Source of the DNA: Thermotogaceae bacterium
Lineage (GTDB): Bacteria; Thermotogota; Thermotogae; Thermotogales; Thermotogaceae
Direction: 5' to 3'
DNA: 64,000 nt
NCBI GenBank assembly: GCA_027077795.1
Contig: JALWTT010000006.1
Location: 434,001-498,000 of the forward strand
A model generated the notes under the pieces. It was not told the origin of the DNA. It searched no databases and saw only the letters and a program-made list of their open reading frames with translations. The stretch's first letter is position 1; each line of letters begins with the position of its first letter. The position numbers were made by a program, and so were the translations under genes. Of this stretch, positions 49,097 through 57,964 are shown one piece after another.

Positions 49097-49218
49097 TGAA
49101 CCCCTCCCATAATTGAGACCCTTTTAACAAATAACTATAGCGATTTTGTGGTATAACTCTACCTGAAAAAGATTATATCAACTTTGTTTTCAAAGTCCAT
49201 CACTTTGGGGTGATGTTT

Positions 49219-51090
49219 TTGTACAACACCTGTATGAGGGATTGCTACGACACATGTTTGATAGAGACGAACGTTGTCAATGGGAAAATCCGAGTTAAGG
49301 GTAGCTTTAAAAATCCGATTACACATGGTTTTTTGTGTCCCAAAGGTCAGATGTTTCCAAAATGGGTTCACAGCCAAGAGAGGTTGAAAAGTCCGCTCGT
49401 GAAAAGAGATGGAAAGTTTGTTGAGGTTTCCTGGGAAAAAGCTATAGAAACAGTTGCCAGGGTCTTAAAGGATCTCATTGAAGGAGGCCAGGAGAAGAAG
49501 ATCCTTCTCTACCAATACGCTGGGGACAGAGGAGTTGTGAATTACCATTTTCCGATGAGGCTATTTCACAGGATGGGAGCGTCGTTCTTGGATCACGCGA
49601 TATGCGATAGAGCCGGTCAGGAGGCGCTCAAAGGGATATATGGAACAGCTGTTGGGATGGATCCAGAAGATCTTAAAAGCGAGAAGCTGGTGGTTTACTG
49701 GGGGATGAATCCTTTTTGGACCAATCTCCATGGATTTCAAATGATTAAAAACCTTGGACTTGAGGTATGGAGCGTGGATGTTTACAAAACTCAGACTGCA
49801 AAGCGAAGCGACAAAAGTTTTTTGATAAAGCCAGGAAGTGATCCAGAATTTGCAGCCGCTATTTTGAAGTTCATGGTGGAGAATGATCTGTATGAGAAAA
49901 GCGTTGAAAATTTGAAGGGTTTCAAGGGGCTACTGGAGAAGCTTTCAGAACTCGATATCGAACATCTTTTAAATTTGTCCGGAGTCTCTTACGAGGACTT
50001 AGAATTCTTTGCAAGGAAATTCCACGAAAAGCGTGGTGTAATCCACATAGGTTACGGATTTCAGAGGGGAAGAAGAGGTGGGGAGAGCGTCAGCCTTGTT
50101 GGGCTCATCCCAATAGTTTCTCAGGGAAGATGCTCCTTTATATATGATATGAAAGTTCTTGATAAGAGCTATGCAGAGGGGAGATTTCTCAGAGAGAAAG
50201 GGCTTAATTTGATTCCCCAGATGAAGATCTACGACTACATGGATAATGGTGCTATAAAGATGCTGTACATATACAACTCAAATCCCGCTTCAACTCTTCC
50301 AAATCCAGACAGATTCGGGGATTTAGTGAGAGAAAGAGGCATATTCACCGTAGTTCATGATATATTCATGACCGACACTGCAAGAATCGCGGATGTGGTT
50401 CTGCCAGCAAACACATTCTTTGAGAGATTCGATATAGCGGATTCTTACTACCATTCTTATGTTTCCATAAATGAGCCTGTCTTGAAAATTTCTGGGAAGA
50501 GTAACAGAGAGGTTTCGGTTATGCTTGCGGAAGCTTTGGGGTATGATGACCCGTATCTTTACGAGTCTGAAGAGAGTATTATAAGAAAGGTTTTAGAAGA
50601 TTCAGATCTAAAATACGAGGAGCTTTTGAAGAAGAAGATACTGAAAGGAAAAAGAAGGGAAAGTTGTGATCCAGGGAAGGTGATTCTCTTTGGGGAGAAA
50701 GTGAGAAAGGCTTTTGGTAGAATAGGAGAGGTTCCAGAAGGTGATCTTTTGATGATCACACCAACTTATAACATGACGGTGAGCAGTCAGTATCACAACA
50801 CTTATAAGATAGATGATCCATCTGTCCATATATCAACCTCTGATGCAGAAAGATTGGGATTGAGGGATGGAGAAGATGTGGTTTTGAGTAGCAAAGCGGG
50901 GAAGGTAGTTGTCAAATTGAGAGTGGATTCAGATGTTCCAGAGGGGTTAGTCATATCCTACAAAGCTTTCTGGAAATCCATAGCGAATTGGAATGTCAAC
51001 CAGGTGGTTCCAGAAGATTCTCAGAAGGGTTATTCTGATGCGGCTGTTTACCATCATTTTCCAGTGAATATTAGGAGGTGGGAAGGATGA
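49219..51090 (+). CDS. Molybdopterin-dependent oxidoreductase
   Basis: Starts at TTG 49219, 5 nt after GGGGTGA, giving 623 residues; a GTG at 49210 and an ATG at 49213 are alternatives. The N-terminal [4Fe-4S] site is C5-x3-C9-x3-C13-x26-C40 (NTCMRDCYDTC and FLCPKGQ). Molybdopterin-binding text follows: VYWGMNPFWTNL, KPGSDPEFAAAILK and DVVLPANTFFERFD; the C-terminal MopB domain ends FPVNIRRWEG. No signal peptide, so probably cytoplasmic. AICDRAGQEAL has Cys at the position of the active-site metal ligand region, and the partner subunits and substrate are unknown. Genes for cofactor insertion lie 4 kb downstream. Confidence 0.87.
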   Translation: MYNTCMRDCYDTCLIETNVVNGKIRVKGSFKNPITHGFLCPKGQMFPKWVHSQERLKSPLVKRDGKFVEVSWEKAIETVARVLKDLIEGGQEKKILLYQYAGDRGVVNYHFPMRLFHRMGASFLDHAICDRAGQEALKGIYGTAVGMDPEDLKSEKLVVYWGMNPFWTNLHGFQMIKNLGLEVWSVDVYKTQTAKRSDKSFLIKPGSDPEFAAAILKFMVENDLYEKSVENLKGFKGLLEKLSELDIEHLLNLSGVSYEDLEFFARKFHEKRGVIHIGYGFQRGRRGGESVSLVGLIPIVSQGRCSFIYDMKVLDKSYAEGRFLREKGLNLIPQMKIYDYMDNGAIKMLYIYNSNPASTLPNPDRFGDLVRERGIFTVVHDIFMTDTARIADVVLPANTFFERFDIADSYYHSYVSINEPVLKISGKSNREVSVMLAEALGYDDPYLYESEESIIRKVLEDSDLKYEELLKKKILKGKRRESCDPGKVILFGEKVRKAFGRIGEVPEGDLLMITPTYNMTVSSQYHNTYKIDDPSVHISTSDAERLGLRDGEDVVLSSKAGKVVVKLRVDSDVPEGLVISYKAFWKSIANWNVNQVVPEDSQKGYSDAAVYHHFPVNIRRWEG

Positions 51091-52359: not shown

Positions 52360-52991
52360 AAGGAGAATGGGTCCTGAGGAACATAAACTTCACTTTGGGT
52401 ATTGGGGACAGCTTTCTAGTTCTAGGAAGAAATGGAAGTGGGAAGACAACACTTTTGAAGCTCATCTCTGGGATAATAGAGCCATCGGAGGGTAGGATCT
52501 TCATCGATGAAAATCCAGTGAGAGATCGCGGAGAGCTTCTTGAGATAACAGGATATGTTTTTCAAAATCCGCAAACACAAGTTGTTGGTGCCACAGTTGA
52601 GGAAGATGTCGCCTTTGGACTCGAAAACATGGGGATGGAGAGGAAAAAGATGCAAGAGAGAGTTGAGGAGGTTCTCAAAGCTGTGAACCTGTGGCGGTAC
52701 AAGGAGTTTGATCCTTCCTTGCTCTCTGGAGGTCAGCTTCAGCGCCTTGCAATTGCATCTATAATAGCTCTCGATCCACCATTCTTACTACTGGATGAGC
52801 CTTTGTCCATGCTAGATCCAGAAGGTGCAAAAGAGGTGGTAGACCTGATAAAGAGGCTGTCCAAGGAAAGAGGCATCTTAATCGCCACTCATGAACCTCA
52901 CAAGTTTCCATTTATCAATGATGCTGTGCATCTGGAAAGTGGAATCATGAGAGTGGAAAAAGGAAATCCTGTGGTTTCAGATTGGATCTGA
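52299..52991 (+). CDS. ECF/CbiO-type ABC transporter ATPase
   Basis: About 230 residues from TTG at 52299, preceded by GAGG; the first residues lie in the methyltransferase frame, so the true start may be further in. Walker [37 protein letters not shown] (Q-loop of EcfA), signature [14 protein letters not shown] and Walker [16 protein letters not shown] are standard. Its first 60 bases overlap the methyltransferase in another frame. No EcfT or S subunit is encoded here. Confidence 0.85.
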
Positions 52992-53721
52992 GTTCATCGA
53001 GGTATTTCTCATTTGTTAGAAAGACTGTTATAGGTGTAATCGAGACGTACCCTGACTTCACAGCTTTGTAGTCTACATCTGGGTCATCGTCGTCCTCAAT
53101 CACATCTCCCATCATCCAATAATACGTCCGGCCGAAGGGATCTTTCCTAGGTTCGAAGAAATCCTTCCATCTTCTTTTGCTCTGTTTTGTGAACTTCCAT
53201 CCTTTTATTTTTTCGTAACTTAAAGCTGGCACGTTTATATTGAGAGAGGTAAAAGGAGGTAGCGTTGAAAAATCGAACCTCTCAATGAACCTAGCTGTAA
53301 ACTCAGCTGCTGAGTCATAGTTCGGGTTCGCGTAGTCTGCACTGGACACGGCTATAGCTGGGTAACCACTCATGGCTCCCTCCATAGCACCTGATACTGT
53401 GCCGGAGTATATTATATCTGTTCCCAAATTCGGACCACGGTTTACACCACTTATCACTAAATCGGGGGCTTTGAACAGCTCGTCTATTCCGAGCTTCACA
53501 CAGTCAGCAGGTGTTCCTGTAGTCGAGTACACCTTAGCGTAGTCACATATGCTTAGCTCTTTTACCCATATTGGGAAATGAATTGTTATCGCATGACCAA
53601 CAGCACTTCGCTCGGACTCAGGCGCTACTATTGCTACTTCGTGGTTCCTTGAAAGCCTCTTTGCAAGTGTTAAGATTCCGTTCGATGTGACTCCATCATC
53701 ATTTGTTATCAGTATTCTCAT
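52945..53721 (-). CDS. surE: 5'/3'-nucleotidase SurE
   Basis: 258 residues. The metal site is [16 protein letters not shown] (D8-D9), with S39 and N in [24 protein letters not shown] and ITPITVFLT fit the family. SurE dephosphorylates nucleoside 5'/3'-monophosphates in the cytoplasm. Its 3' end overlaps that of the convergent ATPase gene by 47 bp. Confidence 0.95.
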
Positions 53722-53725
53722 CCGT

Positions 53726-54625
53726 TCACCTCACACCGAGTGTCCAGCGTTTGTATGTCTTTGGAAGAGCCTGGAGATAGTTCTCAAGGGTGTTGAAATC
53801 CAAGTCTGCTATCGCTATTCCCTTGTTTTGTGAATCGGTGAGTTTGACTACAAACCCATCAAGCTTTTTTGTGAGAGCTGCTGGAGCTGACACGAAGGAT
53901 AACCCCTTGTAGTCTCTTCCGAGAAACGTTCCAAAGGTGACCGAATTCACTCCAAATATCCCCAAACTCTGTGATCTAGCCCACATACCTTTTCTTAGAA
54001 TCCATTCGTTGAACATACCATCAAAAATTTCACTCGTGAAAACCAATCTTCCGTCATCTTCCATGAATCTTCTCACGGATCGATAGTCTTCGAGCTCTTT
54101 TGGAAACATGTAAGAACATGTTATACCTTTCACCTTAAAGAGCTTGTAAATGGATTTCGAACTACCTGAAGCTACGATTTCCCCCCTGTCGGAAACCACG
54201 TAGTACTCCTCTTTGTTTTCAGAGATCATTATGGTCCCTCCAACAACTACACTGCTTGTCGAAATCGCAATTTTCCTCAGTATCGAGATGTAAGCGGATC
54301 TGAAAATTACCCCGTAGTTGTTCAAGATTTTTTTCCCCTTCTCCTGGGAGATCCTCTTTCCAGATAGAGGAACTAAACCCATTAGGAAATTTCCACTGAA
54401 TCTTGGGAAAGCAACAACATGGGGATTGTATTTGGATATTTCCTTTATCTTCTGATCTACAAAGTCAAGGGCTCCTTCCACCGTATACACAGGCTCAAAT
54501 GGCATTTGATAAGCCATTACACGAAACCCCTCAGGTTTCTCTAGAGGAGAAACCTTTATTCTATCCAGAAGCTTATCCAATCTAACTAGGATTCTCTCAA
54601 GGTAGTTCCAGAGGAATCCCCTCAT
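53726..54625 (-). CDS. Nitrilase-fold protein, probably not active (a)
   Basis: 299 residues. The middle follows the carbon-nitrogen hydrolase fold: [30 protein letters not shown] where nitrilases have FPE (catalytic Glu replaced by Arg), IVVGGT-like VVVGGTIMI, and [11 protein letters not shown] near the usual nucleophile. The end is [17 protein letters not shown]. So at least the catalytic Glu is lost. An N-terminal tail of about 30 residues is helical. It overlaps its partner gene by 4 bp. The role may be structural, ligand binding or regulatory. Confidence 0.65.
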
Positions 54626-55110
54626 ATTTTTACCTCCAAGACTATTGTGGAACTCCCTTCGGCTATTATCCCTGTACCGTTCTCCGTCATATCAATCGGT
54701 GCGTAAATACCATAGTGGATTTTCTCCATAACATCAGCTAATGCAAAGATCACCAAACCACTTTCTTGAGCATGGGCCCACGTTCTGTATTTGAACATCA
54801 TCAACCCCGCCATTCCGGAAGTTCTTTCAAATGTAATGGCAAATCTAGCTCCTCGAGATCTACCATGATGAAAAACTTCTGGATACGTTGCATCATTCCC
54901 TATCGCGACTAAAAATGGCACTCCGTACTCAACGACGGCGAACTCCTCGATCCTGAATATCTCTTCCTCCCTCGAGTATACCACGGCTATCCTATCGTTT
55001 CCCACAACGGTAGCCTCAGATAGAAAAAGGGGAGGTTCTGCCCAAGATATGGAAAAATCCACTCCTTCGAACTCTTCAAGGCCTACCTGTGAACCTATGT
55101 AGAATTTCAT
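54622..55110 (-). CDS. Truncated nitrilase-fold protein (b)
   Basis: 162 residues. Resembles the C-terminal half of the nitrilase fold: VGNDRIAVVYSREEEIF, YPEVFHHGRSRGARFAITF (the post-nucleophile helix), MFKYRTWAHAQESGLVIFAL and GIIAEGSSTIVLEV. At the nucleophile position, where nitrilases have Cys, it reads AIGNDATYPE, so no Cys. The N-terminal half with Glu and Lys is largely missing. It forms an ATGA overlap with protein (a), so the two may work together. Confidence 0.6.
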   Translation of the reverse strand: MKFYIGSQVGLEEFEGVDFSISWAEPPLFLSEATVVGNDRIAVVYSREEEIFRIEEFAVVEYGVPFLVAIGNDATYPEVFHHGRSRGARFAITFERTSGMAGLMMFKYRTWAHAQESGLVIFALADVMEKIHYGIYAPIDMTENGTGIIAEGSSTIVLEVKI

Positions 55111-55164: not shown

Positions 55165-55629
55165 TCACTCCTTGATGTTTTCTACAGCGTGGGGAATTAC
55201 ATCCAGGACGAACGGGAGAATCTCTTCAACAGCTCTTGGGCTTCCTGGAAGATTCACAACGAGACTTTTCCCTCTAACACCAACAACAGCTCTTGAGAGC
55301 ACTGCCTTTGGAGTGTACTTGAGAGAGGTCATCATCATGGCGATCTCAAATCCATAAACCCTTTTATCAACGACAGAGAGAGTGGCTTCGGGCGTCACAT
55401 CTCTCTTGGTCAATCCGGTTCCACCAGTAGTCAAAACAACGTCGGCTTTTAAATCATCGCACATTCTCGTAATCTCTTCCCTTATCTTGTCATAATCATC
55501 TGGTATGATCGAATACTCCAAAATGGTCCAGCCGCGCGCTCTCACCATCTCTGTGATCCTTTTGCCGCTTTCATCATCGTAAATGTTGTGGGAAGCTCTA
55601 TCACTTATGGTTATCACTGCGAACTTCAA
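55165..55629 (-). CDS. MogA/MoaB-type molybdopterin adenylyltransferase
   Basis: 154 residues. FAVITISDRASHNIYDDESG and DVVLTTGGTGLTKRDVTPEAT (the GGTG-x3-RD motif) and VNLPGSPRAVEEIL are those of MoaB/MogA, which adenylate molybdopterin before metal insertion. The pattern TISDRASH... is usual. It overlaps the MoeA gene by 4 bp. Confidence 0.92.
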   Translation of the reverse strand: MKFAVITISDRASHNIYDDESGKRITEMVRARGWTILEYSIIPDDYDKIREEITRMCDDLKADVVLTTGGTGLTKRDVTPEATLSVVDKRVYGFEIAMMMTSLKYTPKAVLSRAVVGVRGKSLVVNLPGSPRAVEEILPFVLDVIPHAVENIKE

Positions 55630-57530
55630 CTTTTAATCACCGTCCCGCTTTTTGATAAGTCGTAACCTCCTATTCTTTCCGCAACTCTTTTGAATTCCTC
55701 AGATTTCAGGATCTCCATTATTTCTTTGAAAATTTTGCTTTCAAAGAAGCTTTTTTCAACCAGGAGGTCGTATCTCTCCTTGACCATTGGGATGAAATCT
55801 AGGTCCATTACTCTCGCGGCTGATTCGATCCCCATGCCGGCATCGGCTAAACCTTCCTTCACCTTAACCGCGACGTTCATGTGGGAAATCTCTTCCGTAC
55901 AGTAACCCTTTATCTCTGAAGGATTTATTCCTTCCTTTCTGAGTAGATAATCCAAGAGTACCCTTGTTCCAGAGGCTTTTTGCCTGTTCACAAAAATTAC
56001 GTCATCTCTCGTCAAATCCTCTAGCCCCCTGATGTTCTTAGGATTCCCTTTTCTCAACATGAGACCTTGGATTCTGTAGGACATGTTCACTAGAATGTAG
56101 CTTGTCATGAATTTTTTCACATAGGGGATGTTATATTCCCCGGTTTCCGGATCGAACAGATGTGTCCCGGCCAGATGTGCATATCCCTTGCTTATTGCTA
56201 TTATTCCTCCCATGCTTCCGACACTTGACGATGAAAGAACAATCTCGTGATCCCTTGTTTTCACGAGATCGGCTAAAACGTCTATGAGGATATCGTGACT
56301 CCCTACAACCAGGATTTTCTTTTCCAGGTCTGTGCCATTGTAATCCACTATCACTTTTTCTCCTTCATCCACGACCGCCTTGCCTTTTTCAATTGTGAGT
56401 AGAGCGTCATGCCTTGTAAGTGATATGAGGTTTGCCGCGCCCCTCTTCAAAGGTGAGAATATCACCTTTCCGTCCACTTGAGCCAGTGCTCCCCTCACAT
56501 ATTCTTTTTCACTGATGGAGGAGCTCATCCTCACAGAAGAGACGGCGGATGTTCTCAATTCGATCTTTTCAAAGGTCTTGTATTTTCTCAGTATCAACGA
56601 TTTAACTACTTTTTGCAAAACTATGTCCAAGGATACGGGAAATCCTGGCAACCCTATCACAGGTTTCCTTCCCATCACGGAGAGAATCACAGGCTTTCCT
56701 GGTTTTATGTTCATGCCGTGAACTACCAGCTTTCCCAGTTTTCCTATAACCCTATATGTGTAATCTTTCGATCCAGCTGAAGATCCAGCTATTGTGAAAA
56801 CCATATCGTACGTTTCAACGGATCTTTTCAAGATTTTTTCCAGTCTCTCAGGGTTGTCAGCTACTACGCTATGCACATCAGCCTCAACATCATTTTCAAC
56901 CAAAAAGGCTTTCACCATAGAACCGTTGGTTTCTGGGATTTTTCCACCGGATATCACGTCATTTGGCGGCACTATCTCATCACCCGTTGGTATCACCAGA
57001 GCCTTCATCTTCCTTATCACAGGAATTTCGAACACACCGGCTGCCAGGAACAATGGAATGTCATAGTGCTCTATCTTGTGGTACCTCGTTACTATCATTT
57101 CACCAACTGTTACATCTTCTCCTATTGGACGAATGTCGTTTGTCGGGAAAACAGGTTCGAAGATCATCACCTTATCCCTATCTATTACCCTGACTTTTTC
57201 TATCATCAAGACTGCATCAAATCCATCGGGTATGGGATCTCCCGTGTTGACAAATGTGAAATCCTTTCCTTTTTCCAAAACAATCGGACTAGCTTCAGAA
57301 GCACCAAAGGTTGAAGAGCTCCTTAAAGCTATCCCATCCATAGCTGCACTCGTATAATGAGGAACATTTCTCTTTGCGTATATAGGCATAGCGGTTACTC
57401 TTCCAAGAGATTCAACAGTTAGAACGTTTTCAACATCGTCACTGAAAAATCCCGCCTTTTTAAGCTCTCTGAAATATGCATCTAGACCATTTTCAAGATC
57501 AGTTCTCCTTAGATATATCTCCCTTCTCAA
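55626..57530 (-). CDS. MoeA molybdenumtransferase fused to a periplasmic-binding-type domain
   Basis: 634 residues. MoeA part (about 1-405): YTSAAMDGIALRSSST, FVNTGDPIPDGFDAVLMIEK, MKALVIPTGDEIVPP, IAGSSAGSKDYTYRVI and GLPGFPVSLDIVLQ (MoeA catalytic and molybdopterin regions). The rest (about 410-634) is a PBP-like domain like that of ModE-free MoeA fusions: VVGSHDILIDVLADLVK, GTHLFDPETGEYNIPYVKKF and FVNRQKASGTRVLLDYLL. This domain may sense a metal oxyanion or help load it. It overlaps the adjacent MogA-like genes on both sides (ATGA). Confidence 0.9.
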   Translation of the reverse strand: MRREIYLRRTDLENGLDAYFRELKKAGFFSDDVENVLTVESLGRVTAMPIYAKRNVPHYTSAAMDGIALRSSSTFGASEASPIVLEKGKDFTFVNTGDPIPDGFDAVLMIEKVRVIDRDKVMIFEPVFPTNDIRPIGEDVTVGEMIVTRYHKIEHYDIPLFLAAGVFEIPVIRKMKALVIPTGDEIVPPNDVISGGKIPETNGSMVKAFLVENDVEADVHSVVADNPERLEKILKRSVETYDMVFTIAGSSAGSKDYTYRVIGKLGKLVVHGMNIKPGKPVILSVMGRKPVIGLPGFPVSLDIVLQKVVKSLILRKYKTFEKIELRTSAVSSVRMSSSISEKEYVRGALAQVDGKVIFSPLKRGAANLISLTRHDALLTIEKGKAVVDEGEKVIVDYNGTDLEKKILVVGSHDILIDVLADLVKTRDHEIVLSSSSVGSMGGIIAISKGYAHLAGTHLFDPETGEYNIPYVKKFMTSYILVNMSYRIQGLMLRKGNPKNIRGLEDLTRDDVIFVNRQKASGTRVLLDYLLRKEGINPSEIKGYCTEEISHMNVAVKVKEGLADAGMGIESAARVMDLDFIPMVKERYDLLVEKSFFESKIFKEIMEILKSEEFKRVAERIGGYDLSKSGTVIKS

Positions 57531-57964
57531 GCTGGTTCAACTCCCTCTTTGAGTAGCTTTATCGCCTCTATTATTTTTGTGAGAACCTCATCATACCCAC
57601 AACTGGGGAGGTTTATAACGAAAGTATCTCTCCTGATTCCGGCAACTATTCTGGCGAACATTCCTGTAAGAGCAGATTTGACCGTTTCTGAGAATATGAA
57701 ATATTCCAAGCCGGGAATCCTTTTATCCACGATTCTGAGAGTGGCCTCTGGTGCTATATCATCATCGCCTATACCTGTTCCTCCTATTGTGAAAATCGCG
57801 TCATAATCCTGACATGTTAGTTCATAGAGTCTCTCAGCTATCTCGCTTTCCTTCCTTTTCATCCTCTCCACAGTTTCGATCTCCATTCCGTTTTCTTCTG
57901 CGTCTTTTATCAGGCTATCCACATCCACGCCCTTTTCGCCTATTATAAGAACTACACCTTTCAC
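57527..57964 (-). CDS. Second MogA/MoaB-like protein
   Basis: 145 residues. AIFTIGGTGIGDDDIAPEATLRIVDKR fits the MoaB core (GGTG-x-DD), and NLPSCGYDEVLTKI takes the place of LPGSP. N-terminal VVLIIGEKGVDVDSLIKDA lacks the usual SDR motif. The two MogA-like copies flank MoeA, which suggests different specificities (for example tungsten and molybdenum) or a heteromer. Starts 14 bp after the YqeY gene and overlaps MoeA by 4 bp. Confidence 0.85.
   Translation of the reverse strand: MKGVVLIIGEKGVDVDSLIKDAEENGMEIETVERMKRKESEIAERLYELTCQDYDAIFTIGGTGIGDDDIAPEATLRIVDKRIPGLEYFIFSETVKSALTGMFARIVAGIRRDTFVINLPSCGYDEVLTKIIEAIKLLKEGVEPA

Follow-up and report, generated by a model that had tools for sequence, protein, structure and literature searches.

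Adjacent nitrilase-like proteins with lost catalytic residues in Thermotogota are candidate subunits of a binding complex

In the window (the whole stretch of DNA analysed, 64,000 nucleotides, C6:434001-498000 of the 1.72 Mb genome G000, with MAGs of Thermotogaceae and Thermotogota as its named near relatives) we found two minus-strand genes, b and then a, which share 4 bp. Both open reading frames lie where the preliminary description had placed them, and the neighbours it named are present as well, the molybdenum genes being identified by domain scans and surE by its sequence and position. The features of the locus are:

52945-53721, minus strand: surE-like ORF downstream of the pair, named from its own sequence and position
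53726-54625, minus strand: gene a, 299 aa with an ATG start, a predicted pseudo-nitrilase with the full-length fold and an extra N-terminal helix
53969..53983, minus strand: WARSQ helix of a, W215-Q219, its W and Q unchanged across the family
54101..54103, minus strand: Pro175 of a, aligned by profile with the catalytic Cys
54401..54403, minus strand: Arg75 of a (FPR, residues 73-75) at the catalytic Glu position, by profile alignment
54622..54625, minus strand: 4 bp shared by the end of b and the beginning of a, from the ORF coordinates
54622-55110, minus strand: gene b, 162 aa with an ATG start, a predicted compacted pseudo-nitrilase and the first gene of the pair
54763..54780, minus strand: WAHAQE helix of b, W111-E116, with W111 and E116 in 21/21 sequences
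54898..54900, minus strand: Gly71 of b (IGND) at the catalytic Cys position, by profile alignment
55036..55038, minus strand: Glu25 of b, just after strand 2 and near the catalytic Glu position (probable equivalence)
55165-55629, minus strand: mogA-like ORF (MogA-like product) upstream of the pair
55626-57530: MoeA-PBP fusion ORF upstream of the pair
57527-57964: second, short MoCF-domain ORF upstream of the MoeA-PBP fusion

The MoeA at 55626-57530 has a PBP-like domain fused to its C-terminus (NCBIfam PRK14498, 652.7 bits, cut-off 534), and a molybdopterin oxidoreductase-like ORF with Pfam families PF00384, PF01568 and PF04879, and with no NCBIfam equivalog over its cut-off, lies at 49210-51090 of the window.

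The survey covered 103 Thermotogota genomes in families f1-f11, of which f3 and f10 are presumably Fervidobacteriaceae and Petrotogaceae. Single-sequence searches at E 0.01 matched a in 36/103 genomes and b in 21/103, with at least 3 of the 36 a matches due to chance; the weak matches in G039 and G045 are ORFs unlike nitrilases, and the one in G051 has a stop in its 64-codon frame. Search profiles were then used (A6 and A7, followed by the further-reaching A8 for b and A9 for a), and with A8 at E 1e-10 or better b-like genes were detected in 70/103 genomes: 12/14 in f1, 9/11 in f2 and 10/10 in f8, the families with a linked pair, together with 16/20 in f3, the single genomes of f4 (1/1) and f5 (1/1), and 21/21 in f10. 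At this threshold none was found in f6 (2 genomes), f7 (3), f9 (17) or f11 (3). The members behind the 23 rows from which A8 was built, 5 of them from f10, match by construction. A7, built without f10, matches 7 of the 21 genomes of that family, weakly (1e-4 to 1e-3) and chiefly in the N-terminal region, which makes b less certain in f10 than in any other family. There b is followed at once by an ORF of 221-241 aa in conserved order (e.g. L227:3694-4961, L212:4875-6141), which was considered as a form of a and set aside, its homology not being demonstrable at a profile match of 7%. For a itself, A9 at E 1e-20 or better gave 48/103 genomes, the intact a of G019 and G055 included, and short ORFs (frames of 168-189 aa) in G078, G080, G081 and G086 matched at 2e-9 to 5e-6; in f3, a is shortened to 168-205 aa. 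With thresholds of 1e-10 for b and 1e-20 for a, short a ORFs also accepted, the intact pair excluded and kinship uncorrected, the 82 genomes outside f10 comprised 48 with both genes, 2 with only a (G087 and G097, both at contig ends), 1 with only b (G079) and 31 with neither.

Linkage follows a similar pattern in the families with a pair. Gene b lies directly before a in all 21 f1/f2 genomes, in each of which a candidate a start is found -14 to +18 nt from the b stop (several start choices exist per gene), and the same order was seen in 10/10 f8 genomes (in G011 by coordinates). The two genes are unlinked in f3, as well as in G001 and G002. What surrounds them is variable: mogA, moeA, the MoCF gene and surE adjoin the pair in the window's own genus and near genera, and a mogA or MoCF gene lies near it also in G098, G099, G089 and G088. 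Thermotoga-like g5 and G090 have a hisS-like gene before the pair and an argS-like gene after it, f8 has a transketolase after it (domains scanned in L079) and, in L220, a patatin-like ORF before it (read by eye), f10 has an M18-aminopeptidase-like ORF before b (read by eye), and an endonuclease IV-like gene is also among the neighbours in other genomes. Across the loci compared no neighbour besides the partner is constant, and reading a function from the neighbourhood was given up on that account. The search for the pair in other Thermotogota, which the preliminary description had proposed with molybdenum genes in mind, found it widely, with other genes beside it elsewhere, and a molybdenum link has no support outside the genus of the window and two neighbouring genera. 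A role of the proteins in molybdenum-cofactor biosynthesis or delivery could be considered from the mogA-like, moeA and second MoCF-domain genes upstream in the window and from the four further genomes with mogA or MoCF genes nearby, and is very unlikely given the inconstancy of these genes and the hisS/argS, patatin-like/transketolase, endonuclease IV-like or aminopeptidase genes that take their place elsewhere.

Some of these loci hold further ORFs. In G099 a 764-aa ORF without a Pfam match stands between mogA and b (L055:3171-5462), G098 has one of similar size, and the window has no such gene; in G089 (L057:9960 on) b is preceded by a 985-aa ORF whose C-terminus we take to resemble an HD-GYP domain. 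In f3 (L203, L206, L209) the shortened a follows an NlpC/P60-like ORF and, in L203, is itself followed by a glpX-like ORF (by eye).

A Pfam scan at E 1 gave zero families for a and zero for b of the window, neither of which reached the gathering score of PF00795, and among family members a PF00795-type match at E 0.01 was obtained for 7/21 of a and 0/23 of b. The NCBIfam match of a to PRK13672 (21.7 bits against a cut-off of 67) was taken as chance. Searches of the PDB with either single sequence returned no matches, and those with profiles gave weak ones: for a the top match was yeast Nit3 (E 0.044), after which came the unrelated Eyes absent, and for b the top matches were amidases (E 0.35). 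AlphaFold2 models, computed from alignments of 7 sequences for a and 6 for b, reached pLDDT 78.6 and pTM 0.83 for a, and pLDDT 93.9 and pTM 0.90 for b. The best Foldseek match in the PDB was for each a nitrilase-superfamily amidase (3.5e-14 for a, 1.3e-6 for b), VIA-align placed a on 4kzf (Z 22.2, rmsd 3.4, 245 aligned) and b on 7elf (Z 15.5, rmsd 2.4, 155/162 aligned), and the top Foldseek and VIA-align matches listed for both proteins are nitrilase-superfamily structures. Profile comparison points the same way: a matches nitrilases at 97.7% and the intact a-like protein of a sister pair (described below) at 99.4%, whereas b, which matches related pairs at 93% and the b of f8 at 96.7%, matches nitrilases at just 65.6%; ten controls with reversed alignments all stayed at or below 1.1%. 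As the b of f8 alone scores 1.7% against nitrilases, its nitrilase origin depends on the link to the b of f1/f2. Both proteins are thus predicted, by model comparison and profile comparison, to have the alpha-beta-beta-alpha nitrilase fold, as the preliminary description had proposed, and not the different fold that would have spoken against it. Its statement that b misses the N-terminal half did not hold, because residues 1-162 of the b model span chain residues 4-277 of the nitrilase 7elf (VIA-align) and so cover the whole core. Protein b falls short of nitrilase length by about 100 residues, and the upstream open frame adds just 12 codons; the first strands are kept and the deletions are internal segments, so that in the model b is a compacted nitrilase core and not a C-terminal half.

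The catalytic positions have been altered throughout the family. The FPR that replaces the nitrilase FPE in a was found at residues 73-75 as previously described, and the Glu site is replaced in 23/23 f1/f2 sequences, by Arg in 14/14 of f1 and by Asn, His, Gly or Ala in 9/9 of f2; the Cys site of a holds Pro, Arg or Lys, with Cys in 0/23 of these sequences. For b, the profile alignment sets Gly71 of IGND on the nitrilase Cys, in agreement with the earlier reading; this site is Gly in 12/12 f1 sequences and Ser, Val, Thr or Ala in f2, where 5/9 b proteins have a Cys one column before it. The region of the catalytic Lys is deleted in both a and b in the profile alignments. Residue 25 of b is acidic in 21/21 sequences (Glu in 12, Asp in 9) and probably corresponds to the old catalytic Glu position. 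The claim that both proteins have lost their catalytic groups therefore stands in full for a, which lacks Glu, Lys and Cys, and in part for b, which lacks Lys and Cys and keeps Glu/Asp25; intact groups at shifted positions, which would have contradicted the claim, do not occur in a and are reduced in b to this acidic residue.

Conservation has instead been retained elsewhere in the proteins. W215, Q219, P248, T252 and G257 are invariant in the 23 f1/f2 sequences of a, and all but T252, which is nearly so, remain invariant in a 21-row alignment that includes f3, f5, f8 and the intact pair. These residues belong to the W/Q helix and to the PxxxT...G stretch further on, outside the active site. 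Among 24 ordinary nitrilases from the phylum, R and N of RAxEN are invariant and the W215 position is W in 0/24. The residues of b conserved at 90% are E13, D18, S22, W23, E50, K107, W111 and E116 (K107 in 21/21), only G6 and E13 being invariant in a wider alignment; the b of a Thermosipho-like genus has no helix W.

Both genes are under purifying selection, with dN/dS of at most about 0.10 where computable. Of 30 genome pairs compared per gene, 12 were computable for a and 15 for b, the remaining ones, with all pairs involving the window genes among them, being saturated or identical; values ranged from 0.058 to 0.099 for a and from 0 (an identical protein) to 0.102 for b, or, where dS was below 1, from 0.062 to 0.099 and, identical proteins aside, from 0.048 to 0.102. 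It is hard to reconcile these values with a pair of pseudogenes on the way to loss, which the lost catalytic residues, the shortening of b, the 168-205 aa forms of a in f3 and the several genera without the pair might suggest; the frames are moreover open in dozens of genomes and the pair survives moves of neighbourhood, and we give decay almost no credence. Since catalytic groups were lost across relatives while both genes remain under purifying selection, a non-catalytic role is likely for both proteins, as judged from their sequences. The acidic residue of b, and the nearby Cys in 5/9 of its f2 forms, leave room for some residual chemistry. A stronger version of this, in which the pair has become a neofunctionalised enzyme whose former active-site pocket has acquired other catalytic residues, would draw on the retained fold, on Glu/Asp25 and Lys107 in 21/21 b sequences and on the f2 Cys near the nucleophile position. 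We consider it quite unlikely, since the only polar or aromatic residues of a conserved at 90% are W208, W215, Q219 and T252, with no Cys, Ser, His or Asp among them, the corresponding set of b fits no known arrangement of nucleophile, acid and base, and just G6 and E13 of b are invariant in the wider alignment.

A related pair with one live member was found in two genomes, G019 (L080), which we take to be Kosmotoga olearia, and G055 (L075). Its a-like protein has intact Glu, Lys and Cys and matches CN_hydrolase at 6e-17 and 1.1e-12, respectively, and its b-like partner is dead, with Glu replaced by Ala and Cys by Ser in G019; the two are 35% identical to each other (67 bits). This sister pair resembles the pair of the window in its b-then-a order, overlapping genes, W/Q helix and profiles (a 99.4%, b 93%), and differs in its catalytically intact a and in a b that is longer N-terminally (252-281 aa). 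Because G055, an assembly of 520 contigs with 6% contamination, also carries a degenerate b and follower elsewhere (L227), the idea that the intact pair is the direct ancestor is weakened, and we regard it as a sister or paralogue. In plasmids, the only non-Thermotogota data searched, the intact a-like protein matched ordinary nitrilases and fused two-domain nitrilases, and the b-like protein of G019 had no match; of the 325 plasmid records with a match, 111 span 80% or more of the fused protein from Priestia. In the four fused proteins read, domain one has the triad and domain two keeps Glu and Lys with Cys changed to Gly. The Priestia and Rhizobiaceae fusions (e.g. WRU97710.1, WP_172426340.1) thus join a live domain to a Cys-to-Gly domain, whose motif G.DA.YPE resembles IGNDATYPE of b; unlike the pair they are single polypeptides with the live domain first and with Glu and Lys retained in the second. 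As profiles link b only weakly to domain two (7.6%, compared with 1.3% for domain one), the fusions are a precedent in kind and not proof of common origin. A live half beside a Cys-lost half is therefore found in G019, G055 and the four fusions, while the pair of the window consists of two dead halves. In Rhizobium leguminosarum (L238:3037-4788) the fused live/dead nitrilase comes right after the urea ABC transporter genes urtB-urtE, and urtE also precedes it in L239 and L240.

The pair shares with the nitrilase superfamily (PF00795; aliphatic amidase, Nit2, formamidase, N-carbamoylputrescine amidase) the predicted alpha-beta-beta-alpha fold and strand order, the FP loop and an S/P...G stretch after a RAxEN-like helix, and differs from it in that a has no Glu-Lys-Cys, b lacks Lys and Cys and is about 100 residues shorter, and the pair has helix W, which 0/24 ordinary nitrilases have. 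All but one of the superfamily crystal structures are reported to show alpha-beta-beta-alpha dimers across the A-surface (PMC4700190), and Nit1 and Fhit, which are fused in some animals, are reported to interact (PMC9913352). Two nitrilase paralogues forming a heteromer are described for sorghum NIT4A/NIT4B2 (PMC5154151), there a plant complex that is an active enzyme.

Taken together, we hold it to be probable that a and b are paralogous pseudo-nitrilases kept as an obligate two-subunit complex, which binds and does not hydrolyse. The earlier suggestion that the losses indicate a binding complex is borne out as regards a likely non-catalytic role; the complex of the two proteins is what we infer as the best account, from their adjacency, close or overlapping starts in 21/21 genomes, co-occurrence and the fused live/dead nitrilases elsewhere, while the unlinked genes of f3, G001 and G002, the Thermosipho-like b, the lack of a constant pathway neighbour and the acidic residue and nearby f2 Cys of b count against it. 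In the proposed mechanism, a and b would have lost amide/nitrile hydrolysis and been retained as an obligate pair, meeting as an alpha-beta-beta-alpha heterodimer over the surface used by nitrilase dimers. The RAxEN-type helix of the superfamily lies at the A-surface, and on this basis WARSQ of a and WAHAQE of b, the two conserved W/Q helices, would be in or near the interface. Protein b would be a compact dead half and a would offer a full-size pocket without a nucleophile, so that the heterodimer, serving as sensor or scaffold, could bind a ligand or a partner protein without cutting it. We propose such a heterodimer on the strength of the A-surface dimers, the sorghum heteromer, Nit1-Fhit and the helix position. 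Alternatively, a and b may not be each other's partners, and one or each could dimerise with an active cellular nitrilase and tune it; three further CN_hydrolase genes are available in the window genome for this, and the genes are unlinked in the Fervidobacterium-like f3. Those nitrilase genes are distant from the pair, however, and adjacency and co-occurrence indicate a and b for each other first, which makes the alternative unlikely.

The heterodimer of a and b could also belong to a wider picture, which we advance tentatively and with rather more doubt than belief: a nearly phylum-wide, unannotated housekeeping complex of pseudo-nitrilases, acting as sensor or scaffold, derived from a live/dead pair whose live half died too, with the same pairing recurring in fused form in other phyla. 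Among the papers listed by literature searches none dealt with Thermotogota pairs of nitrilase pseudoenzymes, nor did one come from a search by TM1091/TM1092, which we take to be the locus tags of the pair in Thermotoga maritima (G091 being presumably strain MSB8), and nitrilase-fold pseudoenzymes seem little described. A pair kept in most families of one phylum, most of its members without a Pfam family, is a clear target for work on function, and the thermophile origin of the proteins makes such tests easy. Live/dead pairing, whether separate or fused, would offer a path from a homodimeric enzyme to a heterodimeric regulator.
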